A DNA stretch of 64,000 nt, taken from Solidesulfovibrio magneticus RS-1. GTDB lineage: Bacteria > Desulfobacterota > Desulfovibrionia > Desulfovibrionales > Desulfovibrionaceae. Below the pieces are notes generated by a model. It made no database searches and was not told where the DNA came from. It saw only the letters and a program-made list of their open reading frames with translations. How positions within the stretch are numbered: position 1 is the stretch's first letter; the number at the start of each line of letters is the position of its first letter. Position numbers and translations under genes: made by a program. Shown here piece by piece: positions 43,815 to 64,000 of this stretch. The DNA lies in assembly GCF_000010665.1 (NCBI RefSeq), contig NC_012796.1, positions 3,563,501 through 3,627,500 on the forward strand, given 5' to 3'.

Positions 43815-43815
43815 C

Positions 43816-43831
43816 GCGCAGATGTCTGCTC
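43816..43831. repeat. outlying fragment of the R repeat family
   Basis: GCGCAGATGTCTGCTC with flanks CCCCCAAC and ACATGGTGCCT is a degenerate piece of the repeat seen complete at 45724 and 60958. It is the leftmost trace of the integrated-element stack. Confidence 0.5.
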
Positions 43832-43930
43832 ACGACATGGTGCCTAACAGCGTGTTGATAAACTCCGCCAAGTGACCGAGAATCCTGCCATCGGGGTTCC
43901 GGAGGTGATCTGATGGGGCTTGGCCGTCAG

Positions 43931-44039
43931 GGTGATCAGCAGGGGACGATGTATCTGGCCTATGGATGAGATTCCTCGGTCTCGTGGGCACGCTTTTTAC
44001 TATCGTCTCCAGCAGATTCTCCGGAAAGCCGGCTTCTGA
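43931..44039 (+). pseudogene. transposase N-terminal remnant (IS1182/IS5-like)
   Basis: GDQQGTMYLAY and, one base out of frame, DEIPRSRGHAFYYRLQQILR then KAGF resemble the first 40 residues of IS1182-type transposases, which carry a PRSxGHxFYxxL motif. The frame change near 43965 and the stop after KAGF show it is dead. Confidence 0.5.
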
Positions 44040-44453
44040 TCGGCGACAATTATTCTTGAGCATTCCTCAGCAGAACCAGGCGTATTTATCTCCAAAACTA
44101 GCTATAATTGCGGATTTTTCACCAAAATAGTTGCCGCACTCACTCTTGGAGAATTATTTAGTGCCCGCCGTAACTGATTGCACAGCCGAGAGCTTGTTCT
44201 CAACGCGAAGTATTTCTAGCACGTATAGCAGACACTTGAATTTACTCTTGACTATCTTTTGAATTTTCATGAAAAGAAAACTAGAACAGGCAAATCAACT
44301 TCTATTCGCTCTACCACTAATTACAAATACAAACATTTATCATTTTGAATTAATTCAATTCTAGAAACGAAATTGCCAATGCAGAAAACATGAAAAAATT
44401 TAACACAACAACAAGAACATTGCACAACTATACAATATACAAAGAGCTATACC
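44040..44453. other. AT-rich gap before the HD-GYP gene
   Basis: About 410 bp of AT-rich sequence with no convincing gene. The base composition drops sharply from the GC-rich core to the left. It presumably contains the HD-GYP promoter, but no single -35/-10 pair stands out among the many AT-rich matches. Confidence 0.4.
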
Positions 44454-45677
44454 ATGATTAAAAAAATTTATACAACAAACCTTAAGCCAGGGATGTACGT
44501 AATAGAATCAGGGTTGTCCAAAAACGACAACCCACATATCTATTCAAAAGAAGGTGAAATTGAAAACACAAGCCAGATACAGGATATCATCTCCGCTGGC
44601 TATCTAGACGTCTTCATAGACTCAAACAAAGGAAGTTATTTCAAGAGCAATCCAAGCGAAAAGGTTCCAATCATTGAAGAATATGAGACCCTCTCCGTCT
44701 CCAAGCACAAGATAGAGTCTGGAGGCAGAAGCTTTGACTCGATGGGGGCACACATAGAGGAGGCTGAACTTGTCTACAAAAACTCATTGGACTATGTAAA
44801 AGACCTTGTAGACTCATTAAAATTCAAAAAGAAAATAGACTTCAGTAAAAGTGAAGAATGCATTAATGACATATTTTCACATATCAACAACAACATTGAC
44901 TCGCTTCTATTTATTTCAAAGCTAAAAAAACATGATACGTATACGTACACTCACAACTTAAATGTCTCTATCTTTTCTATTGCGTTTGCATCAGCTATTG
45001 GCCTTGGCGAAGATAATATCAAAATCATTGGGTTATCAGGCTTATTTCACGATATTGGGAAGTTATACATCAACGAAGATATACTAAACAAACCAGACAA
45101 ACTTACCGCCAAAGAATTTGAGGAAATAAAAAAACATCCAACTCTTGGATTTAATATTTTACAAAAAGACAAAAATGCTGCGACTGAAGTGTGCAAAGCT
45201 GCCCATGAACATCACGAAAAGCATTCAGGAGGAGGCTACCCACAAAGCATTAGCTACAAAAAGATATCAACATACGCATCACTCATAAGCATAATAGACG
45301 TATTCGACGCTCTCACGAGTAACCGATCATATAAAAGGAAAATTGATCTTCACAAAGCTCTTGGCATAATATTCAACCTCAAAGGAACCTCATTCTACCC
45401 CGCTCTTGTTGATAAGTTCATAAAATTTCTCGGAATTTACCCTGTCGGATCTATTGTCCTGCTAAGTAGCGGAGAAAAAGCAATTGTAACAGAGCAAAAC
45501 AGTGCTAACCTTTTGCGGCCTAAAATCAGAATTGTCATGGACAAAAATAACCATTATCAAAAGGTCATCGATCTCGACCTAGTCAACGAGAGGACCGAAG
45601 GGGCAGATAAATTGGATATTTCGGAATGTTTGAGCCCAGAGAATTGCCGCATAAACATTTCTGATTTTTTGCGATAA
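44454..45677 (+). CDS. HD-GYP domain cyclic-di-GMP phosphodiesterase
   Basis: This 407-aa protein has an N-terminal DUF3391-type region (about 1-110, starting MIKKIYTTNLKPGMYVIESG) and an HD-GYP domain (about 155-330). Metal ligands are visible as HDIGK, HPTLGFNIL, AAHEHHEKH and DVFDALTS. The GYP loop is HHEKHSGGGYP, so the Asp of the usual HHExxDGxGYP is Ser. HD-GYP enzymes degrade cyclic-di-GMP and influence motility and biofilm. No membrane segment is present. Strong AT bias compared with the core genome indicates acquisition by transfer. Confidence 0.88.
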   Translation: MIKKIYTTNLKPGMYVIESGLSKNDNPHIYSKEGEIENTSQIQDIISAGYLDVFIDSNKGSYFKSNPSEKVPIIEEYETLSVSKHKIESGGRSFDSMGAHIEEAELVYKNSLDYVKDLVDSLKFKKKIDFSKSEECINDIFSHINNNIDSLLFISKLKKHDTYTYTHNLNVSIFSIAFASAIGLGEDNIKIIGLSGLFHDIGKLYINEDILNKPDKLTAKEFEEIKKHPTLGFNILQKDKNAATEVCKAAHEHHEKHSGGGYPQSISYKKISTYASLISIIDVFDALTSNRSYKRKIDLHKALGIIFNLKGTSFYPALVDKFIKFLGIYPVGSIVLLSSGEKAIVTEQNSANLLRPKIRIVMDKNNHYQKVIDLDLVNERTEGADKLDISECLSPENCRINISDFLR

Positions 45678-45723
45678 ATGCAACCCCTAAGTCCCGCAAC
45701 CATACGCACAGCCCTCTCCGTCT

Positions 45724-46250
45724 TGTGCTCATAGAAAACGCAACGAAGAATTCGCAGCCACATTCCTAACGCAAAGTGAATCGGTGCGCATAGCGGACAA
45801 CACAGGGTAATGTCATTCCCGATGAATCCCCTCCCCCAACGCGCAGACGTCTGCGCACGGCATGGTGCCTCACTACACACTCATTATCCGGTTCATTTTC
45901 GTCTGATCAGCTCGCCAGCCCCGGCATCCCAACGTATCAAAATTCGGAGAATTCGACGCATCAGCTGGGAATAACTGACGATTAACACGCAACTTGCGTT
46001 CAAATCCTGTCAAATCGTATCAACTCACTGAAATTACTTAAGATGGTGAAAATTCTGTGCCGCCGGGACCACTGAAAAGGAAAAGCCGGCAGGAGGAGGA
46101 TTGCGGATAAATCGGGTCCGCCAACGATGCCAACAGGCACGACCCCCTGAACATAGAAAAAGGGGGCAGGAGTTTTAAATCCTAATAACTCGATTTTCTC
46201 TGAGTAAGTACGGAGACTCGAACTCCAGACCTGCGGATCACTAGTCAGCT
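45724..46250. repeat. R repeat, copy 1, ending in a decayed tRNA-Thr 3' end
   Basis: This region has no gene. It begins TGTGCTCATAGAAAACGCAA, includes the 16-bp palindrome GCGCAGACGTCTGCGC (45841-45856), ATCAAAATTCGGAGAATTCG and GCGGATAAATCGGGTCCGCC, and ends in the tRNA-like block GGAGACTCGAACTCCAGACC (46212-46231). The same order is found at 60958-61504, diverged at 48400-48923, and partially at 59699-60001. Open frames inside it are translations of the repeat, not genes. Confidence 0.8.
46212..46234 (-). other. decayed attachment site (tRNA T-arm fragment), boundary 1
   Basis: On the minus strand GCAGGTCTGGAGTTCGAGTC then TCC equals the variable loop and T-arm of tRNA-Thr as in the 48879 and 61460 copies. 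The anticodon-side and acceptor-side bases have diverged and no CCA remains, so this is the oldest of the three boundaries. Confidence 0.6.
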
Positions 46251-46349
46251 CCAGATGGACATAGGGGAGGAATCCCATTTGCTCCTGCGTTTGAATTTGG
46301 TATGGTCCAAAAAAAATCAATAAAAACTCGTACAGACGAGGAGTTATAG

Positions 46350-48388
46350 TTGGTTACCGAGAAGACAAAGGAAGAGCTAGTCACTGAATTAGATGCTGCG
46401 CGTCGACGCATCGCGGAGCTTGAATCAAAAGCGCATACTATTCGTTGTTCCCAATGGACTCGCTGTTCATCACGCTATGAATCTCTAGTAAAACTATATG
46501 AGCTAGAAATTGATTCGCTTCAAGAGCTTTTTGATTTCGCTCTAGAACAGGCTTTAGTTTTAACCGAAAGCACTCTCGGTTACATTTACTTTTATGACGA
46601 GACCACAGAAGTATTCACACTATATTCATGGTCAAAAAACGCAACGAGTCATTGCAAGGTCGCTGACAAACCTAATAGATTTTTGCTAAAAGACACAGGA
46701 TTATGGGGGGAGGTTGTTCGTCAGCGCAAGGAAATTGTTGTCAATAATTTTTCTTGCCCAAATCGTTTCAAGAAAGGATATCAAGATGGCCATGTTGATA
46801 TCCACAATTTTTTATCGATACCTGTATGGAAAGGAGAATCGATTGTTGCCGTTGTTGGCGTTGGCAATAAAGAAAGTGACTATACCGAATTTGACATCCA
46901 GCAACTTGATTTATTTGCAAAAGGTGTTTGGGTTGTTGCTCAACGGAAAGGGGCTGAGGAAGCACTTCGCTTGAGCGAAGAACGGTATCGTTCCGTAGTA
47001 GAAGATCAAACTGAACTTATCAGCAGGACTACCCCTGAAGGAATTATTTTATTTGTCAATGAGATTTACTGCCGATTTTTTGGGATAACCGCAGGAGATA
47101 TTGTTGGATCTAACTGGGCTCCAGCCGTTGCTCCCGATGACATTCACATGGTTCAGAATATTCTTAATACTTTTTCACCTGACAGTCCCGTTGTGACAAT
47201 TGAGATTCGTGTATTTAATGCGCTAAATGAAATTCGGTGGATGCAATTTGTTAATCGGGCAATTTTTGACAAGAATTCCAATATCGTTGAAATTCAATCT
47301 GTCGGCAGAGACATTACAGAACGCAAAACAATCGAAGAAGAGTTAAAAGAAAGCGAATTACGCTGGAAATTCGCTCTAGAAGGAAGCGGCGATGGAATTT
47401 GGGATTGGGATATTGCAAAAAATACCCTATTTTTTTCTCACGGATGCAATCTAATGCTTGGCTATTAAGAAAATGAATCAAGAAATACCCCTACTGGGTG
47501 GAAGCAAAGCGTCCATCCAGACGATCTAGAAGATTGTTTAGAAGCTCTTTACTGTCATTTGCGTGGCGAAACTTCTTTGTATGAAAAAGAATATCGTTTG
47601 CGTTGTAAAAATGGATCTTATAAATGGATACTTAGCCGCGGAAAAGTAATCCAATATGACACACAGGAAAACCATTGAGGGTCATGGGTACCATCAATGA
47701 TATTTCTGAAAGAAAAAAGATGGAAGCCATAAGAGACGATGTTGATAAAATAATGAGGCATGATTTACGGTCTTCCCTTATTGGTATCGTTGGATTACCC
47801 GACATCTTGCTGGAAAATCACGAACTCACACAGAAAGAGAGGGATATACTGTGTGCAATCCAGGATTCCGGTTACAAACTTCTATCAATGATCGAAAATT
47901 CCGTTAGCATTTACAGGATGGAGATTGGGTCTCATGAGCTAAATCTGTCAAAAATTGACATTATTCCAGTCCTCAAAAATGTTATTTCAGGGTTAAGTCG
48001 CAAATTCAAAAACAGTAGTATATCTTTTAAAATTCTTGTGGAAGATAAAATTCTAACTAATAGAGATTCATTTTTATTAGACTGCGAGGATACTTTTTTT
48101 TATAATATGATTTCAAATTTATTATTAAATTCACTGGAAGCTTCCCCATTAAACGAAACAATTTTCTTGAAGCTTTCTTTTTCAAAAAAATCACTCAGCA
48201 TTATCAACAAAGGTTCTGTGCCTCTAGAAATAAGAAATAAATTTTTTGAAAAATATGTTACGGCAGGAAAAAAAAGCGGAACTGGAATTGGCACCTACTC
48301 GGCAGCTCTTATTGCCAAAACCCACGGTTGGAAGATATGGCTTGACACGTCAATTCTCAATGAGACTACCGTGACAGTTAAATTTTAA
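46350..48388 (+). pseudogene. sensor histidine kinase (GAF-PAS-PAS-HisKA-HATPase), broken twice
   Basis: The reading frame starts with TTG 46350 behind GAGGAG and encodes an N-terminal coiled coil, a GAF domain (about 50-205) and a PAS domain with SVGRDITERKTIEE. It then enters a second PAS domain, where it stops at TAA 47466-47468 (LMLGY-stop; GAA would restore the usual GYEENE). The frame continues (GWKQSVHPDDLEDC, YRLRCKNGSYKWILS) until a one-base loss near 47671 (QENH-stop instead of QENPLRVMGT). From 47675 the remaining frame encodes the HisKA His (MRHDLRSSLIGI) and an ATPase domain ending GTGIGTYSAALIAKTHGWKI. Both lesions are single-base events, so inactivation is recent or due to sequencing error. 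Confidence 0.85.
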
Positions 48389-48399
48389 CGATATTGACA

Positions 48400-48878
48400 C
48401 TCGGATTTGCTCTTCACACGGCACTATCTCAACCAGTCGTAGCGCACCGTTCGGTTGCAGCGCTCAACCGTACCCATCTTCACGTCCTCCCCAAAGCGCA
48501 GCCCTTTGCGCATTGTGTAGCGCCTCGCCACGCCTCATTTTTCGACTCATTTCGGCTCGGCGGCCCAGCCAGCCTCGTCATCCCAAAATTTCAAATTTCG
48601 ACGAACACAACGCATCCTGCTGCAATTGCTAACGATCATCGCGGAATCTGCGTTCAAATTCGTTAAAATTCGTTCAATACACTGAAATAACACATAAAAT
48701 ACAGAAAGCGACGCCGGGCCGGGAAAATCCTGGGAGACAAAACAGGTGGAGAGGGGACCAGATGACAGGGGGATTGGGGATTGCGGATAAATCGGGTCCG
48801 CCAACGATGCCAACAGGCACGACACGCTGAACATAGAAAAAAGGGCCAGGACTTTTATGTCCTAACCCCTTGAAATCA
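48400..48878. repeat. R repeat, copy 2 (diverged), with tRNA-Thr terminator
   Basis: This region has no gene. It is homologous in order to the repeat at 45724 and 60958 but more diverged on its left; from GCGGATAAATCGGGTCCGCC onward it is nearly identical to copy 4. A terminator stem lies at 48837-48872 (minus strand: GGGGTTAGGAC, loop, GTCCTGGCCC, T-run) directly downstream of the tRNA end. Confidence 0.75.
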
Positions 48879-48923
48879 TGGAGCCAGCATGGAGACTCGA
48901 ACTCCAGACCTGCTGATTACGAA
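48879..48923 (-). other. attachment-site repeat: displaced 3' end of tRNA-Thr, boundary 2
   Basis: A 45-bp block identical to 61460-61504. On the minus strand it starts TTCGTAATCAGCAGG (anticodon loop CGT and stem), continues with the T-arm TGGAGTTCGAGTCTCCA and ends TGCTGGCTCCA (acceptor and CCA). The 5' half of a tRNA is absent: the bases beyond are GTTGTGTC, unable to pair. It is therefore an integration scar, not a tRNA gene. Confidence 0.85.
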
Positions 48924-48969
48924 GACACAACCTTTGGCTCATCATATTGAATTAATTAGATTAATTTAG

Positions 48970-49069
48970 ATTTTTGGCGCTATTTTTTGGCTAATAGCCA
49001 ACAGCTCTTTTGGCAAAACAATACGCATTTTTGGCGGTGTTTTTGGTTATTTTTTGGCATGTTGTGGCA
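48970..49069. repeat. TTTTTGGC direct-repeat array, possible recombinase arm sites (copy 1)
   Basis: Six direct copies of a TTTTTGGC-like octamer occur at 48971, 48983, 49007, 49028, 49040 and 49050, plus TGTGGCA at 49063, within 100 bp of the attachment site. The identical array is found in the second module (61552-61650). Arrays like this next to a core site often bind the N-terminal domain of tyrosine recombinases or an accessory factor. Confidence 0.6.
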
Positions 49070-49163
49070 AACTGGACGAGAATTTATCACAAACATCCGC
49101 CACCATCAAGTTTCGAGATTGTAAATCAGTTCTTATGAATGGACGACAAACAAATTTTAAAGT

Positions 49164-49201
49164 AAAAAACGAGGCAGGCATTAGAAATCAATGCCCGCCT
49201 C
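49164..49201 (-). terminator. terminator of the zinc-ribbon gene (copy 1)
   Basis: On the minus strand GAGGCGGGCATT, a short loop and AATGCCTGCCTC are followed by GTTTTTTAC. It lies about 90 nt after the stop of the zinc-ribbon gene. The same structure is at 61747-61784. Confidence 0.75.
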
Positions 49202-49293
49202 CATGTAAATCAATACTCAATCTACTGAAACAACCGAACTAATCAAAACAACTCTTGACCCAACTAAACAAGTACATTCTGAAGAATTAACTA

Positions 49294-49650
49294 TCACTTA
49301 GAATGAACGAGATAAGATTTTTTCATATACGCCGCTACAATATCATTAATATTTTGTCTCACACGAACAGACGAACCAGCATCACGATTAATTACTTCTG
49401 AAGATTCACTCTTACCGGTCTCGTTTTCAATGAGATTACTAGCTTCATAATTTATCAAAGATACATTTTCTTTACAATTTTTTACATCAACAACTGGTTT
49501 TTCTCCAGGAACATCACGTTTACGATCTATATCTTCAAAAATTGATTCAATAAATTTTTTATCGCCTAAATAACAACTTTTGCAATAACGATAGTGATAC
49601 CCACCAACAAAAGTAGCTCCACAACTAGCGCACTTATTCTTTACATACAT
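49294..49650 (-). CDS. small zinc-ribbon protein of the recombinase module (copy 1)
   Basis: This 118-aa protein starts MYVKNKCASCGATFVGG and continues with YRYCKSCYLG, giving two CxxC pairs (Cys7, Cys10, Cys23, Cys26) of a zinc ribbon. The C-terminus (VRVRQNINDIVAAYMKKSYL) is helical. Between the two copies of this gene the ends are conserved while residues 47-75 differ, suggesting a flexible linker. It lies between the attachment site and the recombinase gene, where excisionases or directionality factors are often encoded; that role is inference. A good ribosome site (GAGGGATTTGTT) precedes the ATG. Confidence 0.75.
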   Translation of the reverse strand: MYVKNKCASCGATFVGGYHYRYCKSCYLGDKKFIESIFEDIDRKRDVPGEKPVVDVKNCKENVSLINYEASNLIENETGKSESSEVINRDAGSSVRVRQNINDIVAAYMKKSYLVHSK

Positions 49651-49737
49651 AACAAATCCCTCTTAAGTAAGTTTCGAAATATAAAATTGACAATTTTTAA
49701 TTCAAACAATCAGCGAATCTATCAACGACATCAATTA

Positions 49738-49770
49738 GGGGCATCTTCCTACAAAGATGCCCCCCTTTTT
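49738..49770 (+). terminator. hairpin with T-run between recombinase and zinc-ribbon genes (copy 1)
   Basis: GGGGCATCTT-CCTACA-AAGATGCCCC followed by CCTTTTT on the plus strand. No plus-strand gene ends here, so it may insulate the recombinase gene from transcription entering from the left, or act weakly on the minus strand. The repeat copy is at 62321-62353. Confidence 0.65.
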
Positions 49771-49771
49771 A

Positions 49772-50872
49772 TCAAACCAATTCAGGAAGCAGACTGACCG
49801 CTCTTTCTTTTTCACTTTCAAGGCAGTGATAGTAATGACTTGTTGTTGTCGAGATCATTGAATGCCCCAATAATTTTGAAACAGCCGCCAGATCAGCTCC
49901 TTTACTCAACATCGTTGTTGCGAAGAGATGCCTAAGATCGTACATACGAACTGGATAGTTAATCTTTGCCCGCTGACATGCCCCTCTAAATCCTTTGCGG
50001 ATCATGCCAATACGCTCACCACGATAATCAACCACATATCCCGAGGTAGATTCAGCCATCCTTGACCGCATTTTTTCGAGCAACTTAGCCGAAATCGGAA
50101 CAATCCGATATGTCTTTGTTTTACTAGCATATATACGCGCAACACTTTTTTCAAAATCGATATGCTCCCATTTGAGTGCAAGCAATTCTGATTCACCAGG
50201 ACGGGTCCCAAGGTTGAAGCAAACTTCCATTGCCCAACGAATATGAGACTCTGCACACTCCATAATTCGCTTGATATCTTCAACTGTAAGCTGAATCTCT
50301 CGAGGCTTCTCTTTTGACTTACGTCTTCCGCGCATAGGATTCACTTTAGTGAGCCCCATTGCAACCCCGAAATTGAATATTGCATTGACATAGTCACCAT
50401 AACGATTGACTGTCAATTGAGACCGAGGTTTTCCGCTCTTCCCTGGAGTATTTTGAAAAATCTTGATGAATGGAACCATGTCATCAACATAAGTCATCTC
50501 ATTAACGACTTTGTCGCCGATGAGTGGATTGAACTGGTTCTCTATCATCTTTTTCAACTTCTTGGTATTGGTCTCTGTCCGACCAGAGACTTCAAGGTGC
50601 TCTATGTATTTATCCGCAAGATCCTTGAAGATTATTTCAAAAGGCGAAGTATTAACCAGAACCTCTTCACTCTTGACAGGTTGCTCTGACTCGATTGAAA
50701 CAGAGGAGGAGACTTCTCCCCTACTCTGTTTGCTAGCACTTTTCTTTTCTTGATCAAATGCCAGAGCTTCAGCATAAGCATTATCGCCGCGACCAAAAGA
50801 TTTATCTCGACGCGCCCCATTTACATCAGTGTAATAGACCATCCATCGTCCATCTCTTTGATAGACACCCAT
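49772..50872 (-). CDS. tyrosine recombinase/integrase IntA (copy 1)
   Basis: This 366-aa site-specific recombinase begins MGVYQRDGRWMVYYTDVNG, an N-terminal arm-binding-like domain. A Ser/Glu-rich linker follows, then a SAM-like core-binding domain (about 95-185) and the catalytic domain. Catalytic residues: Arg in NLGTRPGESELLALKW, Lys in YASKTKTYRIV, the His/Arg box YDLRHLFATTML and LGHSMISTTTSHYYH with the nucleophilic Tyr. It is directly downstream of IntB on the same strand. A copy with only scattered differences is at 62355-63455. It presumably catalyses integration into the tRNA-Thr 3' end. Confidence 0.93.
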   Translation of the reverse strand: MGVYQRDGRWMVYYTDVNGARRDKSFGRGDNAYAEALAFDQEKKSASKQSRGEVSSSVSIESEQPVKSEEVLVNTSPFEIIFKDLADKYIEHLEVSGRTETNTKKLKKMIENQFNPLIGDKVVNEMTYVDDMVPFIKIFQNTPGKSGKPRSQLTVNRYGDYVNAIFNFGVAMGLTKVNPMRGRRKSKEKPREIQLTVEDIKRIMECAESHIRWAMEVCFNLGTRPGESELLALKWEHIDFEKSVARIYASKTKTYRIVPISAKLLEKMRSRMAESTSGYVVDYRGERIGMIRKGFRGACQRAKINYPVRMYDLRHLFATTMLSKGADLAAVSKLLGHSMISTTTSHYYHCLESEKERAVSLLPELV

Positions 50873-50950
50873 AAGATTTCTCGCATAAGCTTGAATATTG
50901 AATAAGACAATGATTTAAAATGACATGAAGACAGGCCGAAGCAATACACA

Positions 50951-51508: not shown

Positions 51509-51631
51509 AAAAGCCTCCAATGCTTGAATTTGCAACAGGACAGTGGGAAAACAGACTTTGAAAATGCTGGGTGAAAATTACCCTTAGAACCTGTTTTCAA
51601 AATCCAATTGTATTCCACGAGGTAGAAAGTT

Positions 51632-52057: not shown

Positions 52058-52080
52058 TTCGACCGAGTCATAATAAAAAT

Positions 52081-52109
52081 CCCACGCCTTCCATCTCGGG
52101 AGGCGTGGG
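52081..52109. terminator. bidirectional terminator
   Basis: CCCACGCCTTCC-ATCTC-GGGAGGCGTGGG; on the minus strand it is followed by ATTTTTATT, and on the plus strand by CGTAATTATT. It separates the convergent 141-aa gene and the nuclease gene pair. Confidence 0.8.
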
Positions 52110-52189
52110 CGTAATTATTATATTTATACCAACAGAATAAAAGGCTACAAACAAAAATATCATTCAAAAACTTTGGCAACTATCACCCC

Positions 52190-52756: not shown

Positions 52757-52767
52757 TACAAACCTCC

Positions 52768-56631: not shown

Positions 56632-56960
56632 TTCAATTGCTCCCTAACTAAATTAACTGCGGCGAACAAGCGCTTCTTTTTAAACTTTGACGCTGCCATG
56701 TAATCAGAAGGTTCCGATCTAATTCCTTTGTTTATCTGACCTGAAGCAGCGACTAATGAAACGACACGACTAAAAGATGGATCAAATAACATTCTCGCAA
56801 ACTTCGTGGCATAGGTTTGCCCGGCATGGATATAAGCCAAATTTAAAGCCCTTAAGCTTTCATCAATTTTGCCGAAAATCTGGGGGTAATGCAAAAGATT
56901 TTTTACCCGAGCCAATTGTTCACTTGAAAGATAGACTTTAAGAAAAGTATCATCGTTCAT
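56628..56960 (-). CDS. 110-aa helical protein, partner of the WYL regulator
   Basis: The protein is helical and basic at its end (ASKFKKKRLFAAVNLVREQL), begins MNDDTFLKVYLSSEQLARVK and has no recognised domain. GGAGG lies 5 nt before ATG 56960; a GTG one codon earlier is too close to it. It is translationally coupled to the WYL regulator, which suggests a partner or antagonist of that regulator. Function unknown. Confidence 0.65.
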   Translation of the reverse strand: MNDDTFLKVYLSSEQLARVKNLLHYPQIFGKIDESLRALNLAYIHAGQTYATKFARMLFDPSFSRVVSLVAASGQINKGIRSEPSDYMAASKFKKKRLFAAVNLVREQLK

Positions 56961-57430
56961 CACGTCCTCCTTGCCTCACCCGATTGGTCAGGTGTGCTGG
57001 CTGAGAGGACCTTACGACGTGGTTTTGACAGATTAGGTCATAGCGCTTTTAAAATATATACTAATATTTTAATGCCTTGCCTGCTATTAAGATAATATTT
57101 TCGCCAACCAAAGGAGTTATCGTCCTTGCTAATGGAGGAAAAGAGACAGCAAGCTATCAAAGGACGTTTCCACTAGCGGCCCACCCAGCGCCGCCGGCCG
57201 AATCGGACATTGGGCCTAGGCGGCCCACCCTTGCGTTTTTTTGGGGGGGGGGGGAGGGGCCAGGGCATTCTAGCCCGCATGGGGAAAGCCCCAGGAAAAG
57301 ACCGTAGGCCGTGAATCCAACTGTTCAAAATTATTGGGTAACATCTACGCCCTAGATAGCTTGCTGATCAAGCCCCATGACGGCTAGGGTGATCACCGCA
57401 GACGGGGAGCAGACCACCATAGAGGATCAA
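56961..57430. other. intergenic region with promoter and a 12-G tract
   Basis: This 470-bp gap contains a putative plus-strand promoter (57025-57053), a GC-rich island from about 57175 to 57305, and T7G12 at 57236-57254. No convincing gene is seen; one short open frame here is rich in Pro/Gly and unsupported. Confidence 0.5.
57025..57053 (+). promoter_or_regulatory. putative sigma-70 promoter upstream of the DUF3024 gene
   Basis: A perfect TTGACA is followed at 17 bp by TTTAAA (or at 19 bp by TAAAAT). It points toward the DUF3024 gene about 380 bp away and away from the WYL gene set. Confidence 0.4.
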
Positions 57431-57784
57431 ATGGCCATCAGCGAATTCGAACAGCACCGGCTAGAAAGCATCCTGAAGAAATTCTGCGACGAGCAGGGGC
57501 CACCGGCCCATGTTCGTGATCAGCTTCAGTGGGGCTTCAGGATAGACCCTGAACAACAAACCATGGAGCTATTCGAAATCCGTCCCTATTTCATGGACGC
57601 CAGCCGGAAAATCGAAAGCAGGTTTGCCAAAGCGGCCTATGTGAAGACTTCCAAGATCTGGAAAGTCTACTGGATGCGCGGGACAGGCAAATGGACCAAG
57701 TATGATCCATGCCCGAAAGTGAAGACGATTGAAGAGTTCTTAAAAGTTGTGAAAGCAGATGAATTTCATTGTTTCCTTGGATGA
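57431..57784 (+). CDS. DUF3024 domain protein
   Basis: This 117-aa protein matches the DUF3024 pattern: ILKKFCDEQGPPAHVRDQLQ, WGFRIDPEQQTMELFEIRP, a WKVYWMRGTGKWTKYDP core and the C-terminal Asp-x-x-x-CFxG end (ADEFHCFLG). Family members are small, often mobile-element-associated proteins of unknown function. ATG 57431 with GAGG 5 nt upstream gives the normal length; an earlier in-frame ATG at 57377 lacks a ribosome site. The gene is more GC-rich than its neighbours, so it has a different origin from the rest of the element. Confidence 0.8.
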   Translation: MAISEFEQHRLESILKKFCDEQGPPAHVRDQLQWGFRIDPEQQTMELFEIRPYFMDASRKIESRFAKAAYVKTSKIWKVYWMRGTGKWTKYDPCPKVKTIEEFLKVVKADEFHCFLG

Positions 57785-57802
57785 TTATTAGCAGTCATAT
57801 AC

Positions 57803-58537
57803 TTACTTGGATTTACATTCTATTGCCTTACTTATTTCTCCAGTTCGCACAGCTCTTGAACGATGGACGTAAATATCATCAATGACAAATGAAAGGACTT
57901 CATAGACATCAAGAATATCTTTTTTCAACAACACCCCGCCATGCGCGGCCTCATTCCCAAGCCATTTAACTGCCATAAGTCGCATGGCCAATGATTCTTC
58001 AGAAGCTTTAAAAATTTCTATTCTTCTGTGAAGTTTTAACTTTGTTTTGTTGCCGTTTTTAGCATTAATTTCTCCCGAGACACCATTTTCGTCAAGAAAT
58101 CTTTCTACAGCATTTCGAGCATGTGCGCCAGCCGACAAAGTGTCGTTAAAGAAACTAGAGAAAGACAGGTTTAATTCCTCTGCTATCGTCGAAGGAGTAT
58201 TTTTAGGAATTTGAAATATTGGCAAAGGTGGAAAGAAAAATTTTGGAGTCAAAGTGTCGTGATAAGACCACCCGCTCGGCGATTGATCGTAAGCAGGTTC
58301 AGTTGAAGCAATTCCAGCAAAAGATATTGGGTACCTACATTCTTCGAATGTACATGCGAGAATTCCAGACACAACAAAATCACAGGATTCAGGGTCAACA
58401 TAGTCTATTTCTGCGCTTGCTTTCATAAAAATTGATTTAGGGACACATGCAAGTTTCCCTACTCCACATCGAGGACATACAATTTTTGTCTGCTCATTGG
58501 TCGTGAATTGTAAATTCAATATATAATTTCTATCCAT
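57803..58537 (-). CDS. DUF4145-type protein with N-terminal zinc ribbon
   Basis: This 244-aa protein has CPRCGVGKLACVP and later CDFVVSGILACTFEEC, Cys pairs consistent with a zinc ribbon. A helical DUF4145-like C-terminal half follows (SAGAHARNAVERFLDENGV, MAVKWLGNEAAHGGVLLKKD with the conserved GNEAAHG). DUF4145 is often fused to or encoded beside restriction or other defence enzymes. AGG at 8 nt precedes ATG 58537. It is followed upstream on the same strand by the Abi_C gene. Molecular role unknown. Confidence 0.75.
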   Translation of the reverse strand: MDRNYILNLQFTTNEQTKIVCPRCGVGKLACVPKSIFMKASAEIDYVDPESCDFVVSGILACTFEECRYPISFAGIASTEPAYDQSPSGWSYHDTLTPKFFFPPLPIFQIPKNTPSTIAEELNLSFSSFFNDTLSAGAHARNAVERFLDENGVSGEINAKNGNKTKLKLHRRIEIFKASEESLAMRLMAVKWLGNEAAHGGVLLKKDILDVYEVLSFVIDDIYVHRSRAVRTGEISKAIECKSK

Positions 58538-58670
58538 AGCACACACCTCATCTTACTTTCAATTTCATACGGCAAGCGAACAAGATCTCGAAATATGTTT
58601 ACTTAAAAAAACTATTGAAGAATTAACAAGCGTTGTCTAAAAAAGCTTGTCCATTGTTCGTTATATATAA

Positions 58671-59483
58671 TTAATTCTTTTCAGGAGGTGCAGTTCGTAT
58701 TTCATTTGTTTCTATAAGAAAACTTGCAAGTGCTGCACCGACTCCAACGACTAATCTCGCGTGCCGAGGTGAAATCCCAGAGTTTCGGATTTTTCCATGA
58801 CCAGTTCCATAAATATTGCGCAGTTCGTATATGCCTGTGACTACTTGCCCAAGGTTGCTTAAGATGCGACGAACAATCTCTGCACCTTTGACAGATTCAT
58901 GTATTTCCGATGGATCAAGTTTTAAATTCTTCTGTACTTTTTTAAGCAATTTTGGAAGGTCTTCTTTGCAATCACCATCGCCAAAACTCATCAAAACTGT
59001 CTTCATGACACTTTCAAGCATTTCTTTTGTTGAACCAACTGCAAGTTCTGGATCCGTTTCGATTGATTCGCGAATTCTTTGAATATGTTTCGACAAATTG
59101 AATGAATTGTCTAGGGCAACCTTCTCTGCAGCAGAAAGGCTAGGATGGATGTGCCCAAATAACTCTTCAAACAATTGCGGATCATTATTCTGAAGCCAGT
59201 CTTTTAGATTGCAATAATCTGCGAGAATATCGAAGTTCTTTTTGTCAAGATCGATTAATTGTCTAAGCACTCCTAAAACACAACCAGAATAGTCGTCATC
59301 TCCAAAACTAAGACTCCTAAGAAGTTTTGGATGAGAATTTATAATGTCTCTGTCATTTATAAGATATGTTACCTCATCCCAATTTTCGGAATCGAATTTT
59401 GAAACTATACAGCGCTTTAACGCGAGGACAGCCTTTGGCGAAATTCCTGGACTTAATGGGTTGCTAATTGCGTGATGACTCAC
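58671..59483 (-). CDS. abortive-infection protein with Abi_C-like C-terminus
   Basis: This 270-aa protein has a C-terminal domain of the Abi_C type: IVRRILSNLGQVVTGIYELR followed by NIYGTGHGK and ARLVVGVGAALASFLIET. The N-terminal 100 residues are helical without a known domain (WDEVTYLINDRDIINSHPKL). Proteins with this domain are linked to phage-abortive phenotypes. GTG 59483 behind AAGGGTGA was chosen; a GTG three codons earlier is possible. It and the DUF4145 gene, 133 nt apart and co-oriented, may form a unit. Confidence 0.75.
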   Translation of the reverse strand: MSHHAISNPLSPGISPKAVLALKRCIVSKFDSENWDEVTYLINDRDIINSHPKLLRSLSFGDDDYSGCVLGVLRQLIDLDKKNFDILADYCNLKDWLQNNDPQLFEELFGHIHPSLSAAEKVALDNSFNLSKHIQRIRESIETDPELAVGSTKEMLESVMKTVLMSFGDGDCKEDLPKLLKKVQKNLKLDPSEIHESVKGAEIVRRILSNLGQVVTGIYELRNIYGTGHGKIRNSGISPRHARLVVGVGAALASFLIETNEIRTAPPEKN

Positions 59484-60014
59484 TCGATTCACCCTTTTCG
59501 TGAAGAGTTATTATTTACAAACAGCATGTTACTTCTATATTTTTGTTTCTAAATGGTATCCAAAAAAGACTCGAAAAAAACAACTCAACTTAACCTCTAC
59601 ACTAACGACTGAGTATGTGTATCATAATTATTCCCATGATCAAGCAATTTTCCGTCCCTCTCTTAACTCGGTCAGCACGACGGGAACAGTACGAAAATGA
59701 ATCACCGATGAATCCCTTCCCCCAACGCGCAGACATCTGCGCACCACACGGTGCCTCACTACACCCTCATTTTACGGTTAATTTTCGACTTATTAGCCCG
59801 CCAGCCCCGGCAATCCAAAGTATCAAAATTCGGAGAATTCGACACATCAGCCCGGAATAATTTATGATTAACACATAGCTTGCGCTCAAAATCTTTCAAA
59901 TCGTGTCAACACACTGAAATTAATGAGTATGGTGGAACATTCTGCGCCGCCGTGGCCACTGAAAAGGAAAAGCAGGCAAAAAAGAGGGCGGATAAATCGA
60001 ATACTATCTCACGT
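59484..60014. other. intergenic region with partial R repeat copy 3
   Basis: About 530 bp without a gene. From 59699 to 60001 it contains a partial copy of the R repeat, with GCGCAGACATCTGCGC (59727-59742), ATCAAAATTCGGAGAATTCG and the end GGCGGATAAATCG. It stops before the tRNA terminator, so this is a truncated boundary inside element E2. Confidence 0.7.
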
Positions 60015-60521
60015 TTAAATACGGTCTGAACCTAAAACAGCGCACTCAATCCTAGCAGTTCTTTCATCAATAGACTTCAAGACAAGGTCATCTAGGACAA
60101 TGGTTTCTCGAGATTTAATCTCATTTGGAACAGTCAAGAACGACCTATTAATCATACCGCCATCGGCAGCTATCTCCACACACGATATTTCGATGTTCTT
60201 ATGAACCTTACCGGTTAAATTAGTCAACTGTATACGAGCTAAAGTTGTTTCCTGACATTGAGCGACATCCATTACCAAGGAAACATCCAACGCCCCTTTT
60301 CGTTCAGGCAATCCGACACTGCAAGCACCGACAACTATTGTCTCAATTCTTATCCCATCATCTAATACAGTCTTAGTCTTACTACTACCCAGAAACTTAC
60401 CAATCAAACTGTCATTTAACTCTGAAAACACCGCAAAAACAGCAACAACTGAAACCAAAACAATACCAAACAGATAAAAACTGGCATTATTTTGCGATGA
60501 ACTTTTAAATAACTTCTTCAT
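60015..60521 (-). CDS. membrane-anchored protein of unknown function
   Basis: This 168-aa protein has one N-terminal transmembrane segment (FYLFGIVLVSVVAVFAVFS) followed by a beta-rich extracytoplasmic domain with four Cys (VVGACSVGLPERKG, MDVAQCQETT, IEISCVEIAADGG, RIECAVLG). No family recognised. AGGA about 10 nt upstream of the ATG. It lies 139 nt downstream of the small exported protein on the same strand, and both face the periplasm. Confidence 0.6.
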   Translation of the reverse strand: MKKLFKSSSQNNASFYLFGIVLVSVVAVFAVFSELNDSLIGKFLGSSKTKTVLDDGIRIETIVVGACSVGLPERKGALDVSLVMDVAQCQETTLARIQLTNLTGKVHKNIEISCVEIAADGGMINRSFLTVPNEIKSRETIVLDDLVLKSIDERTARIECAVLGSDRI

Positions 60522-60660
60522 CTTCGAATATTCCTATAGACAACAAAAAGATGCAAATACACGCTGCTAAACCAAAAAAAAATAAAAATCTACCAGCACA
60601 CCAAAAACACGACAATGCAAGTCTTGATGATTTAAGTCGCCTACTGACCGACAATTCTTT

Positions 60661-60903
60661 CTAGTCACCAAGAAATTGAGCAATATCCTTTGAAATTGAA
60701 TCTTTAGTATCTTTTTCTTTCAAATCAATCACTCCAATCCTCTCTCCATTGTCTCCGCAAAGAATAATACGCCCCCCGTCTTCGAGCGTAACCATCCGTA
60801 CTTCGGGATTAAAAGCGTTTACCCCAGGATCCTGAGACCAGACACTCGCTGGTGCCAAGCAAACACAAATAACCATACTGAAAAAATAGAGAAATATGAA
60901 CAC
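60661..60903 (-). CDS. small exported protein of unknown function
   Basis: An 80-aa protein with a signal peptide (VFIFLYFFSMVICVCLAP, cleavage likely after VWSQ) and a mature part with one Cys (IILCGDNGERIGVID). GTG 60903 with AAGG 8 nt upstream is preferred; a TTG at 60918 is the alternative. It may be co-transcribed with the membrane-anchored protein downstream. Function unknown. Confidence 0.5.
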   Translation of the reverse strand: MFIFLYFFSMVICVCLAPASVWSQDPGVNAFNPEVRMVTLEDGGRIILCGDNGERIGVIDLKEKDTKDSISKDIAQFLGD

Positions 60904-60957
60904 TATTAGGGCCTTCAATGAGTTCTACTTACACGGGCAAAATGCCCTCACTGATTT

Positions 60958-61459
60958 GCCTTGTGCTCATAGAAAACGCAACGAAGAATTCGCAGCCGCA
61001 TCCCTAACGCAAAATGAACCGGTGCGCATAGCGGACAACACAGGGTAATGTCATTCCCGATGAATCCCTTCCCCCAACGCGCAGACGTCTGCGCACGGCA
61101 TGGTGCCTCACTACACCCTCATTTTCAGGTTCATTTTCGACGTATCAGCCCCGCCAGCCCCGGCATCCCAATGTATCAAAATTCGATGAATACGACGCAT
61201 CTTGCTGAAATTACAGATGATCCACGGAAGTTTTGCGTTCAAATTCGTTCAAAATTTTTCAACATACTGAAAATACAAATAAAAACATAGCTGCCCCTCG
61301 GTCGAAAAATAACGGGGAGACAAAACGGGTGAGGGGGGGGGCCGGATGACAGGGGGATTTGGAATTGCGGATAAATCGGGTCCGCCAACGATGCCAACAG
61401 GCACGACCCGCTGAACATAGAAAAAGGGGCCAGGACCATCGGTCCTAACCCCTTGAAAT
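60958..61459. repeat. R repeat, copy 4, with tRNA-Thr terminator
   Basis: No gene. It starts CTTGTGCTCATAGAAAACGC and follows copy 1 closely, with the palindrome GCGCAGACGTCTGCGC at 61079-61094 and GCGGATAAATCGGGTCCGCC. It ends in a tRNA terminator on the minus strand (61421-61452: GGGGTTAGGACC, loop GAT, GGTCCTGGCCCC, T5). It is the right end of element E2. Confidence 0.8.
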
Positions 61460-61504
61460 ACTGGAGCCAGCATGGAGACTCGAACTCCAGACCTGCTGAT
61501 TACG
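61460..61504 (-). other. attachment-site repeat: displaced 3' end of tRNA-Thr, boundary 3
   Basis: Identical to 48879-48923. It is bounded on the left by the tRNA terminator and on the right by the AT-rich end of the next element. No 5' half of a tRNA gene is present, so the intact tRNA-Thr(CGT) gene should lie to the right, beyond the window. Confidence 0.85.
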
Positions 61505-61551
61505 AAGACACAACCTTTGGCTCATCTTGTTGAATTAATTAGATTAATTTA

Positions 61552-61650
61552 GATTTTTGGCGCTATTTTTTGGCTAATAGCCAACAGCTCTTTTGGCAAA
61601 ACAATACGCATTTTTGGCGGTGTTTTTGGTTATTTTTTGGCATGTTGTGG
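61552..61650. repeat. TTTTTGGC direct-repeat array (copy 2)
   Basis: Same six octamers and spacing as 48970-49069, next to the third attachment site. Confidence 0.6.
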
Positions 61651-61746
61651 CAAACATGACTAGAATTTATCACAAACATCCGCCACCATCAAGTTTCGAG
61701 ATTGTAAATCAGTTCTTATGAATGGACGACAAACAAATTTTAAAGT

Positions 61747-61784
61747 AAAAAACGAGGCAGGCATTAGAAATCAATGCCCGCCTC
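61747..61784 (-). terminator. terminator of the zinc-ribbon gene (copy 2)
   Basis: Same stem as 49164-49201: GAGGCGGGCATT/AATGCCTGCCTC and a T-run on the minus strand. Confidence 0.75.
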
Positions 61785-61876
61785 CATGTAAATCAATGCT
61801 CAATCTACTGAAACAACCAAACTAACCAAAATAACCATTGACACAACTGAACAAATACATTCTGAAGAATCAACTA

Positions 61877-62233
61877 TCACTTAGAATGAACGAGATAAGA
61901 TTTCTTCATATACGCCGCTACAATATCATTGATATTTTGTCTCACACGAACAGACGAACCAGCACCACGATTAATTACTTCTGAAGATTCACTCCTACTG
62001 GTCTCGTTTTCAATGAGATTACTAGCTTCACAATTTAACACAGGTTCATTTTCTTTGCATTTTTTTTCAGCAACAACTGTATTTTCTACAGGAACATCAC
62101 GCTTACGATCAATCTCTTCAAAAATTGATTCAATAAATTTTTTATCGCCTAAATAACAACTCTTGCAATAACGATAGTGATGCCCACCAACAAAAGTAGC
62201 TCCACAACTAGCGCACTTATTCTTTACATACAT
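61877..62233 (-). CDS. small zinc-ribbon protein of the recombinase module (copy 2)
   Basis: This 118-aa protein equals the copy at 49294-49650 in its zinc ribbon (CASCGATFVGGHHYRYCKSC) and C-terminal 24 residues. It differs mainly in the middle (VPVENTVVAEKKCKENEPVL against VPGEKPVVDVKNCKENVSLI). Both frames are intact with no insertion or deletion, so the protein is under selection for its ends and length. Same context: between attachment site and IntA. Confidence 0.75.
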   Translation of the reverse strand: MYVKNKCASCGATFVGGHHYRYCKSCYLGDKKFIESIFEEIDRKRDVPVENTVVAEKKCKENEPVLNCEASNLIENETSRSESSEVINRGAGSSVRVRQNINDIVAAYMKKSYLVHSK

Positions 62234-62320
62234 AACAAATCCCTCTTAAGTAAGTTTTGAAATATAAAATTGACAATTTTTAATTCAAATAATCAGCGAA
62301 TCTATCAACGACATCAATTA

Positions 62321-62353
62321 GGGGCATCTTCCTACAAAGATGCCCCCCTTTTT
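62321..62353 (+). terminator. hairpin with T-run between recombinase and zinc-ribbon genes (copy 2)
   Basis: Identical to 49738-49770: GGGGCATCTT/AAGATGCCCC then CCTTTTT on the plus strand. Confidence 0.65.
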
Positions 62354-62354
62354 A

Positions 62355-63455
62355 TCAAACCAATTCAGGAAGCAGACTGACCGCTCTTTCTTTTTCACCC
62401 TCAAGGCAGTGATAATAATGACTTGTTGTTGTCGAGATCATTGAATGCCCCAATAATTTTGAAACAGCCGCCAGATCAGCTCCTTTACTCAACATCGTTG
62501 TTGCAAAGAGATGTCTAAGATCGTACATACGGACAGGATAGTTAATATTTGCCCGCTGACATGCCCCTCTAAATCCTTTGCGGATCATGCCAATACGCTC
62601 ACCACGATAATCAACCACATATCCCGAGGTAGATTCAGCCATCCTTGACCGCATTTTTTCGAGCAACTTAGCCGAAATCGGAACAATCCGATACGTCTTT
62701 GTTTTACTAGCATATATACGCGCAACACTTTTTTCAAAATCGATATGCTCCCATTTAAGTGCAAGCAATTCTGATTCACCAGGACGGGTCCCAAGGTTGA
62801 AGCAAACTTCCATTGCCCAACGAATATGAGACTCTGCACACTCCATAATTCGCTTGATATCTTCAACTGTAAGCTGAATCTCTCGAGGCTTCTCTTTTGA
62901 CTTCCGTCTTCCGCGCATAGGATTCACTTTAGTGAGCCCCATTGCAACCCCGAAATTGAATATTGCATTGACATAGTCACCATAACGGTTGACTGTCAAT
63001 TGAGACCGAGGTTTTCCGCTCTTCCCTGGAGTATTTTGAAAAATCTTGATGAATGGAACCATGTCATCAACATAAGTCATCTCATTAACGACTTTGTCGC
63101 CGATGAGTGGATTGAACTGGTTCTCTATCATCTTTTTCAACTTCTTTGTATTGGTCTCTGTCCGACCAGAAACTTCAAGGTGCTCTATGTATTTATCTGC
63201 AAGATCCTTGAAGATTATTTCAAAAGGCGAAGTATTAACCGGTACATCTTCACTCTGGACAGGTTGCTCTGACTCGATTGAAACAGAGGAGGAGACTTCT
63301 CCCCTACTCTGTTTGCTAGCACTTTTCTTTTCTTGATCAAATGCCAAGGCTTCAGCATAAGCATTATCGCCGCGACCAAAAGATTTATCTCGACGCGATC
63401 CATTTACATCAGTGTAATAGACCATCCACCGTCCATCTCTTTGATAGACACCCAT
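62355..63455 (-). CDS. tyrosine recombinase/integrase IntA (copy 2)
   Basis: This 366-aa recombinase is nearly identical to the copy at 49772. Differences seen include GSRRD for GARRD near the start, a few linker changes (EQPVQSEDVPVNTS for EQPVKSEEVLVNTS), RANINY for RAKINY and EGEKER for ESEKER near the end. All catalytic residues are conserved. An in-frame TTG upstream at 63527 would add 24 residues but lacks support in copy 1. It probably recognises the same tRNA-Thr site. Confidence 0.93.
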   Translation of the reverse strand: MGVYQRDGRWMVYYTDVNGSRRDKSFGRGDNAYAEALAFDQEKKSASKQSRGEVSSSVSIESEQPVQSEDVPVNTSPFEIIFKDLADKYIEHLEVSGRTETNTKKLKKMIENQFNPLIGDKVVNEMTYVDDMVPFIKIFQNTPGKSGKPRSQLTVNRYGDYVNAIFNFGVAMGLTKVNPMRGRRKSKEKPREIQLTVEDIKRIMECAESHIRWAMEVCFNLGTRPGESELLALKWEHIDFEKSVARIYASKTKTYRIVPISAKLLEKMRSRMAESTSGYVVDYRGERIGMIRKGFRGACQRANINYPVRMYDLRHLFATTMLSKGADLAAVSKLLGHSMISTTTSHYYHCLEGEKERAVSLLPELV

Positions 63456-63533
63456 AAGATTCCTCGCATAAGCTTGAATATTGAATAAGACAATGATTTG
63501 AAAGAACCCCAAGGCAGGCTGAAGCAATACACA

Positions 63534-64000
63534 TCAAATAGTATTTAACAGAATTTCTTCAACCTCTTCTTCTTGAATGCCCAAGTATCTTCTTGTTATC
63601 GAAGGGCTACTATGATTAAGACGCTTAGACAATATCTCCCAGCTAACACCAAATGTTTTCCGTTGATGATATGTCCAAGTTTTACGAAGCGTGTGAGCAC
63701 CGTAATTGCCAGTTAAATGTATCGCTTCAGTCCAGCGCTTCACATACTTTGTCACAGCAAATGTTGTTAGAGGATAATTCTTCCCCTTCCTGCTTTTGAA
63801 CAAGTAATCAGAGCCATTAAACTGGTGACTACTTAGATACCCATCCAGCGCAGCTTTAATCTCCTTATTCAAAATGAAGACATTTTCTTTACCGGTCTTC
63901 TTTTCACGCAAAGAAATGCGCTCACCAACCGGAACGTCATGAACGTCATCAATTTTCAAAGCCAAAATGTCTTGAACTCTCAATCCTGAATTTACACCCA
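63534..64000 (-). CDS. small tyrosine recombinase IntB (copy 2), 5' end missing
   Basis: The C-terminal 155 codons are present and the start would lie at about 64091, outside the window. The catalytic Arg (SGLRVQDILALK), HTLRKTWTYHQ box and LNHSSPSITRRYLGI are as in copy 1. Differences are few, e.g. SSHQFNGSDY for NGNSFNGSDY. It is truncated only by the window edge. Confidence 0.88.
   Translation of the reverse strand, partial: GVNSGLRVQDILALKIDDVHDVPVGERISLREKKTGKENVFILNKEIKAALDGYLSSHQFNGSDYLFKSRKGKNYPLTTFAVTKYVKRWTEAIHLTGNYGAHTLRKTWTYHQRKTFGVSWEILSKRLNHSSPSITRRYLGIQEEEVEEILLNTI

Follow-up and report, generated by a model that had tools for sequence, protein, structure and literature searches.

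How does a bacterial chromosome come to hold several copies of the end of one and the same tRNA gene? The question is raised by a 64,000-nucleotide stretch of the sulfate-reducing bacterium Solidesulfovibrio magneticus RS-1, hereafter the window, which corresponds to chromosome C2:3563501-3627500 on a 5.25-Mb contig of a genome of three contigs. A first-pass annotation of the window had proposed repeated integration of at least three elements beside a tRNA-Thr(CGT) gene, predicted to lie intact further to the right. This gene is present 51.6 kb right of the window (chromosome 3679141-3679216, minus strand), and one more exact copy of its 3' end lies in between (chromosome 3645202-3645246). Three elements with recombinases and at least one small unit are found next to it. 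Very probably, the array consists of islands which were inserted successively at the 3' part of this one tRNA gene, the large ones sharing a core of a structured RNA, a regulator and a small tyrosine recombinase (R2).

The array at tRNA-Thr(CGT)

Three exact 45-bp copies of the tRNA 3' end and one decayed copy, all left of the intact gene, divide the array into four units, E1 (2.6 kb), E2 (12.6 kb), E3 (20.2 kb) and E4 (33.9 kb; Table 1). Apart from the decayed left boundary of E1, all boundaries consist of one identical 45-bp part of the tRNA, whose end lies in the anticodon loop. With identity at 45 of 45 positions across copies 12.6-67 kb apart, chance is no concern. The exact copies match the tRNA up to TTACGAA in the anticodon loop and then diverge, which fits an integrase crossover in this loop. 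Much of the earlier description of the boundaries held. The two window copies are identical, the second one lying 2 bp off the claimed 61460-61504; the T-arm remnant at the left boundary is present and, taken as a tRNA fragment, comprises 39 bp at 89.7% identity. A terminator hairpin adjoins both good window copies (by eye), and the related repeat of about 500 bp lies left of all three window boundaries with pairwise identities of 70.6-86.2%. The isolated scrap of this repeat was recovered as well, beside an insertion sequence (IS) remnant.

Right of the displaced tRNA ends we found arrays of TTGGC/GCCAA motifs, which we regard as putative arm sites. In this array they occupy the left ends of E2, E3 and E4, and a GCCAAC pair is present in every right-end block. 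Counting related genomes (G-numbers below) together with RS-1, 14 of 19 displaced ends are followed by such an array, with 3-7 sites per 140 bp; shuffled sequences have means of 0.45-1.16, and no more than 3 of 500 shuffles attain the observed count. These 19 copies match the tRNA at 36 or more of 45 positions (35 of 45 in RS-1) and come from the fetched regions, the copy at chromosome 1605659 being left out. Distances of the sites from the copy are alike, at about +10, +53/63, +74, +96-107, +118 and +130; the GCCAAC pair lies at about -79 and -70, left of most block-bearing copies in RS-1 and its relatives. Arm arrays of this kind suit a tyrosine integrase with a separate arm-binding domain.

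A first tyrosine recombinase (R1) is encoded in E2, E3 and E4 together with R2. We infer that R1 binds the arm sites, picks the chromosomal site and recombines the tRNA-end copy of the element with the chromosomal one. Integration would restore the tRNA gene and displace the older end leftwards. Units carrying only cargo, a tRNA end and arms are probably mobilised in trans, with a neighbouring element supplying R1. R2 may act on the element itself, for example by resolving multimers of a replicating circle, and the RNA would act in the element's own life cycle.

Is the array also a record of time? The left ends of E2 and E3 are 96.2% identical over 2739 bp without a gap (48879-51617 and 61462-64200, the last 200 bp outside the window), in agreement with the reported indel-free offset of 12583 bp. 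The recombinase genes of E4 are about 71% identical to both. At the right ends, the p168 part of E3 is closest to E4 (93%) as compared to 89% to E2, and in the final 0.8 kb all pairs show 80-85%. Judged from these comparisons the element ends are mosaics and not a clock, and a time-ordered ladder of decay is therefore unsupported. The graded leftward decay described in the first pass did not hold: only the leftmost boundary is decayed, and the other three copies match at 45 of 45 positions.

The structured RNA and the two recombinases

E3, E4 and elements at other sites have a structured RNA, a regulator and R2 as their common core. The RNA is about 0.7 kb long and lies upstream of the gene for the 125-aa regulator, and no long reading frame is common to its copies. 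Twelve copies were aligned with MAFFT; the rows are related, three of them (Pro1665, Arg3448, 997k) near-identical. The consensus fold has -89.7 kcal/mol, as compared to a mean of -7.2 for 20 column shuffles (standard deviation 2.6, lowest -15.4) and -52.7 for the reverse strand, and includes invariant G-U pairs. Pairing is observed in 94.5% of 1253 cells (31.9-40.7% with partners slid by 1-3 columns), two-sided changes at 68 of 105 pairs (12-15 when slid), and the covariation score amounts to 0.575, as compared to 0.06-0.10 when slid. For four of five covariation measures, none of 500 shuffles attained the observed value. The named structure was derived from the same alignment and is thereby favoured over the slid versions; even allowing for this circularity and the kinship of the rows, the excess of pairing appears large.

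The 3' part of the RNA is matched by the Rfam group II intron model RF00029, with scores (cut-off 40) of 39.9 bits for the Arg-type copy, 33.0 for E4 and 28.0 and 23.1 for two others. Genome-wide the model yields seven matches at E up to 1, none above the cut-off and all seven in this RNA. A hairpin resembling domain V carries an invariant AGC (12 of 12 copies) and a 2-nt bulge, and the next hairpin, resembling domain VI, holds a bulged A by eye. No other group II model of Rfam (D1-D4) matches the RNA at E up to 1 (E4), 0.5 or 5. The reverse transcriptase family RVT_1 (PF00078), which the search detected in 3 of 14 control genomes, has no match in the RS-1 genome (E up to 0.001), and by eye the alignment has no conserved 5' GUGYG or 3' AY ends. 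Downstream of the RNA, E3 and E4 have a terminator-like hairpin, which a scan did not find after the Arg-type copy. The 5' part (e.g. L010 near 3624) contains the conserved ATGGGNGCYTTR, in which most changes are at third codon positions, as would be the case if a very short coding start, Met-Gly-Ala-Leu, were maintained.

Searched with a model of its central domain, the RNA is present in 12 of 99 genomes (RS-1 included) with 41 copies altogether, of which RS-1 has 13. A second model, built on the 3' hairpins, recovers exactly this set of 13, 218-271 nt further downstream. In a class-wide draw the RNA occurs in at least 15 of 348 genomes, all of the family Desulfovibrionaceae; fewer candidates were scored per genome, which makes these numbers minimum values. 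In 4 of 16 elements (1129k, 115k, Pro1688, G013) the RNA was overlooked or wrongly placed by a hand-made pattern and located by the models. The models find no copy in E1 or E2, and there is no match to the RNA in the phage and plasmid collections. All 13 RS-1 copies adjoin the regulator and R2. For 36 of the 41 copies an R1 gene is located at most 6.5 kb away. Among the five others, four (RS-1 4167k, G036, G010, G005 C130) also adjoin the regulator and R2; in these, R1 is missing or has a similarity of no more than 23-25%. The remaining copy, G007 C34, lies at a contig end.

R1 has 13 matches in the RS-1 genome at E up to 1e-20, twelve of which form five groups of two or three. Spacing within groups is 19-34 kb, except for the 12.6 kb between E2 and E3. 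One group adjoins tRNA-Pro(TGG), of which a 49-bp copy (98% identity) has been displaced, and another adjoins tRNA-Arg(TCT), with a 46-bp copy at 83%. At chromosome 1.056-1.15 Mb (L097-L101) a block of about 40 bp recurs at seven places, some 2-3 kb apart, by three R1/R2 elements. A tRNA or tmRNA was considered as the target of the 1.06-Mb and 96-kb arrays; none was found in the stretches fetched.

Out of 43 R1 loci, 29 have R2 within 1.5 kb, and removal of two duplicates left 27 pairs for comparison. The 14 loci without R2 comprise nine short ones of other genera and five that are cut by a contig end, split or unexplained. Between the seven Thr and the five Pro/Arg elements (n=35 pairs), R1 identity is 36.6-42.5% (mean 39.0) and R2 identity 64.4-81.5% (mean 76.3), a gap that is partly due to the variable N-terminus of R1; the catalytic part of R1 alone shows 45-52% (mean 48.4). 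The gap is smaller between the Thr and the other 15 elements, with means of 53.1 for R1, 63.8 for its catalytic part and 69.7 for R2. R2 is more conserved than R1 in 298 of 351 pairs. In the R1 tree the seven Thr proteins form one clade (support 100/100), within which R1 of E4 joins that of G001 (100/99); the R2 tree is poorly resolved. A scan of genome contigs returned no relatives with a narrow alignment and 13 loci with a wider one. In the phage and plasmid collections all matches are below 60% to R1, with 23-28% in the 10 listed of 1346 plasmid and the 10 listed of 907 phage records. One IMG/VR contig classed as viral (L174) carries R2 (65%) beside a 38% R1 at its end, with no RNA in the stretch searched.

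We propose that R1 is a target-specific integrase. Since RNA copies keep the regulator and R2 adjacent and R1 is sometimes absent or diverged, RNA, regulator and R2 are the steady core of these elements and R1 is their exchangeable part.

Small units, flanks and gene content

E1 had been described as an element that lost its recombinases. It shows no match to the R1 or R2 families at E up to 0.1, and its two main open reading frames (ORFs) match GAF, PAS and HATPase families of Pfam only. Six further units without recombinases were found in relatives (U1 and U2 each of G001, G008 and G053). The small units are compact (1.1-5.6 kb), several have long open cargo frames together with arm arrays, and five of the six besides E1 have an arm array at the left end. 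Their cargo includes an autotransporter phosphatase, a SEC-C protein, a WG-repeat protein and a weak phosphoesterase match under the Pfam cut-off. A search of the seven units against 27 R1 and 27 R2 proteins (E up to 0.1) returned four fragments of 21-28 aa (E 0.054-0.098). Such units may thus have been built without recombinases. Since cargo units without recombinases, most of them with these arm sites, are repeatedly found in relatives, the lack of recombinases in E1 does not require a loss, and the reported loss is not supported; given its decayed left end, E1 itself may still have undergone one. G008 U2 has a relocated equivalent in RS-1 at chromosome 1595918-1598439 (2.5 kb, 99.3% identical), cut inside the arm block.

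At the tRNA and to its right, G008 and G006 share 91-92% identity with RS-1 over 5.9-7.1 kb, the G006 contig stopping 2.5 kb past the tRNA. Between close relatives the array differs, a comparison that the first-pass annotation had called for: G008 shares the right flank (92% over 7 kb), but its array holds small recombinase-less units only, and the searched 49 kb contain no R1 or R2 match. An E4-type element is present at tRNA-Thr(CGT) in G001, G005 and G007, with genes collinear over part of its length; the tblastx comparison with relatives used a bit-score floor.

On the left, homology to G008 and G006 stops at window position 42936. In G008 the counterpart of positions 36000-42936 is found at a distance of 163 kb from the tRNA, in line with G006, so that the left flank was rejected as host flank of the tRNA, and the leftmost edge as the original host junction. 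Since G006 and G008 are collinear past the breakpoint, the RS-1 junction is by this comparison the derived one, and a rearrangement cut the array there. With an IS remnant near this derived junction, the oldest part of the array may have been lost. An isolated tRNA end at chromosome 1605659 (45/45) was considered as the old host junction of the stack and rejected, being the end of an unrelated element. This 21-kb element (chromosome 1605.6-1626.9 kb; L148, L149) has an exact tRNA-Thr(CGT) 3' end at a secondary site, which is empty in G008; by eye, its genes include a 346-aa integrase-like, a relaxase-like and a TraD-like one.

The left ends of E2-E4 comprise the 45-bp tRNA end, the arm array and the genes for R1 (366-374 aa) and R2 (194 aa in E2 and E3); the right ends comprise p168, p85 and the block of about 500 bp, closing with the tRNA terminator. 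In the regions searched p168 and p85 are absent outside these right ends. Neither has a Pfam match and p168 has no NCBIfam match; by eye the p168 N-terminus resembles a membrane anchor. The E2-E3 match ends past the recombination module and is not regained before the right end, with the exception of a GC-rich 55-bp repeat (window 57186-57240), present at 96% in E3 (75120) and E4 (105423; extended window coordinates). E3 carries a PD-T4-3-like protein, a radical-SAM protein, an ABC transporter and also a replicase, and E4 a primase-polymerase/replicase, a DUF3987 protein and sensory proteins. A further E4 protein (L010:6229-7134) matches phage queuine tRNA-ribosyltransferase-like families and has homologues in elements at several targets. 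Among the Pfam-scanned proteins, which are part of all ORFs, there are no relaxase or conjugation genes of the kind that would mark an ICE or IME. An Rfam scan of window 40000-64000 gave nothing credible.

Table 1. Features of the array; positions refer to the window unless stated otherwise.
Feature	Position	Strand	Remarks
Isolated repeat-block scrap	43803..43848	+	89% to 45828-45873; adjoins IS remnant
IS-end remnant near breakpoint	43832..44036		14 other genome copies: 13 at 95-96%, one at 83%
Repeat block B0, left of decayed boundary	45722..46199	+	85% to E3 right-end block
Decayed tRNA-Thr 3' end, E1 left boundary	46200..46244	-	35/45
E1, 2.6 kb	46245..48878		two frames, one with GAF/PAS part, one with histidine-kinase ATPase part
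E1 right-end block	48489..48878	+	84.6% to E4 right-end block
E2	48879..61461		exact copies at both bounds; CxxC protein, R1, R2 left; p168/p85, block right
tRNA-Thr(CGT) 3'-end copy, E2 left end	48879..48923	-	45/45 to intact tRNA
E2 left arm, 7 TTGGC/GCCAA sites	48924..49063	+	shuffle mean 1.0; 7 reached in 0/500 shuffles
118-aa protein, CxxC pairs (E2)	49294..49650	-	zinc-ribbon-like by eye; no Pfam match; 86% to E3 copy
R1, 366-aa tyrosine recombinase (E2)	49772..50872	-	PF00589 1.3e-27; E4 homologue matches phrog_1
R2, 194-aa tyrosine recombinase (E2)	50951..51535	-	barely beyond catalytic domain; PF00589 2e-19; phrog_216 3.4e-45
Two ORFs, candidate defence family PDC-S26 (E2)	52190..53442	-	PADLOC 8.2e-34, 6.2e-10; PDDEXK_4 in upstream ORF
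Papain-family cysteine protease, cargo (E2)	53473..54531	-	PF00112 8e-42
AbiJ-like abortive-infection protein (E2)	58671..59492	-	PF18865, PF14355; PADLOC AbiJ 3.6e-9
Short repeat-block copy within E2 right end	59705..59999	+	84% to 45819-46114
p168 + p85, right-end genes of E2, E3, E4	60015..60918	-	79-95% aa between copies
E2 right-end block	60960..61461	+	sequence comparison
E3, left part	61462..64000		whole E3 = chromosome 3624962-3645201
tRNA-Thr 3'-end copy, E3 left end	61462..61506	-	45/45
E3 left arm, 7 TTGGC/GCCAA sites	61507..61646	+	0/500 shuffles
118-aa CxxC protein, E3 copy	61877..62233	-	86% to E2 copy
R1, E3 copy	62355..63455	-	98% to E2 R1
R2, E3 copy (start outside window)	63534..64000	-	96% to E2 R2
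E4	chromosome 3645202-3679140		next to intact tRNA

Alternative explanations and known systems

Several observations weigh against successive insertion of islands with a common core. The array is read from sequence, with no excision product or transfer observed, and the roles suggested for R2 and the RNA derive from conservation alone. E2 has R1 and R2 and no RNA, nor regulator or replication genes in the search made. Five of the 19 displaced ends have no TTGGC array (RS-1 46200, G003, G004 69547, G007 C34, G053 3141); the left boundary of E1 is decayed, with none of these sites in the 140 bp to its right, G053 U1 has only three arm sites and the left end of G008 U2 is decayed. Repeats of the GGTAGC/GTTAGC type flank three boundaries by eye (G004:C1:69547, G007:C34:26352, G007:C7:226977). 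As some boundaries show another repeated motif, further element families, for instance with a second integrase family, may use the same tRNA-Thr site. Regarding the RNA, the fifth covariation measure, further pair types (127 versus 121.0), was reached by 49 of 500 shuffles.

It is improbable that the array grew from one ancestral island through tandem duplication or unequal crossing-over, with cargo swapped later. Such growth would account for the gapless left-end match of E2 and E3 and for the similarity of their p168/p85 proteins, but not for the loss of E2-E3 identity between module and right end, nor for E4, whose R1 groups with that of G001 and whose left module is only about 71% identical to those of E2 and E3, so that E4 would have arrived from elsewhere. 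As the whole story tandem duplication was rejected, with differing cargo and an E4 recombinase of another lineage. That E1 and the other small units are decayed leftovers of complete elements, cis-mobilizable elements (CIMEs), is a minority possibility. CIMEs are described to arise through loss of integration and transfer genes (PMC5704250), and E1 has a kinase split across two frames besides its decayed left end. Against this, the seven small units contain no recombinase remnant (best E 0.054), and they are compact, several of them with long open cargo frames and arm arrays.

Could the RNA be an ordinary ORF-less group II intron, self-splicing from a leader transcript and without a role in the biology of the element? 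The near-threshold RF00029 score with all genomic matches inside this RNA, the invariant AGC triad, the bulge, the domain VI-like hairpin and the Arg-type copy without a terminator in the scan all suit this explanation. It nevertheless appears rather unlikely in view of the lack of a D1-D4 match, of RVT_1 in the genome and of conserved splice ends by eye, the terminator-like hairpin after the RNA in E3 and E4 and the position of all 13 RS-1 copies beside regulator and R2. Still far less probable is that the hairpins are folded single-stranded DNA serving as recombination substrate, as in integrons. They do lie close to two recombinase genes, but the fold is biased to the operon strand (-89.7 versus -52.7 kcal/mol) and contains invariant G-U pairs. 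Going beyond successive insertion, we tentatively suggest, at slightly less than even chances, that a new class of large ribozyme-like RNA, with a group II catalytic hairpin and no reverse transcriptase, belongs to the core of a family of tRNA-stacking islands. Together with the regulator and a target-independent R2 it would form an exchangeable chassis for differing R1s, and the stacked tRNA ends would be a landing and exchange platform for recombinase-less cassettes.

The comparisons below follow the accessible parts of the cited papers. Islander lists 3919 islands with 125 tandems of two or more and four of three or more, and Desulfovibrio magneticus RS-1 has the most islands of any genome examined there, 19 (PMC4383910). 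Its tandem islands are alike in having an intact tRNA, displaced 3' fragments in correct orientation and an integrase per island (PMC4383910). E2, E3 and E4 each show these Islander features, with R1 as own integrase; in E1 no integrase is found. Because the algorithm needs an integrase per island, recombinase-less units would be missed, and the accessible account describes neither R2 nor the RNA (PMC4383910). The stack is tandem accretion in kind and well advanced in degree, published arrays of three or more being rare (four in Islander; PMC4383910). The locus may help to explain the many islands of one species by one element family with one core and differing integrases at several sites, and the split into a conserved and a target-specific recombinase is directly testable. 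The cassettes without recombinases point to an exchange of genes at tRNA ends which escapes surveys based on integrases. CIMEs are likewise integrase-less units between att sites beside complete relatives (PMC5704250), and their form, attL and attR without integration or transfer genes, is seen for G008 U1, G001 U1 and G001 U2; the units here differ in being compact, mostly with an arm array and with no recombinase remnant found.

Tycheposons and additive flexible islands are similar in being linked to tRNAs and combining a tyrosine recombinase with cargo, the additive island being marked by recurring tRNA 3' ends; they differ in hosts and target tRNAs, and no such RNA is described in the accessible text (PMC10872708). 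Genomic islands with three integrases (GInts) also have more than one tyrosine recombinase and a small gene at one end (PMC5385486). They comprise an operon of three tyrosine recombinases and ginD, att repeats of 10-17 nt and sites in protein genes (PMC5385486), whereas here two recombinases and a tRNA target are found. ORF-less bacterial group II introns resemble the RNA in their domain V with AGC triad and their size of about 0.7 kb. In nearly all cases such introns are accompanied by a helper intron-encoded protein elsewhere in the genome; a 2015 review gives C.te.I1 as the only exception known (PMC4424553). Group II ribozymes without reverse transcriptase are rare in bacteria, with one independent example in that review. 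By contrast, RS-1 has 13 copies and no detected reverse transcriptase, all copies lie beside island core genes, and D1-D4 are unrecognised. It is the RNA that matters most: its 13 copies in a single genome are linked to a mobile element, so that a group II-type active site may have persisted for a purpose other than retromobility. Tandem accretion as such is known; within the literature searched, the RNA and its module of conserved R2, exchangeable R1 and group II-like RNA appear to be new.

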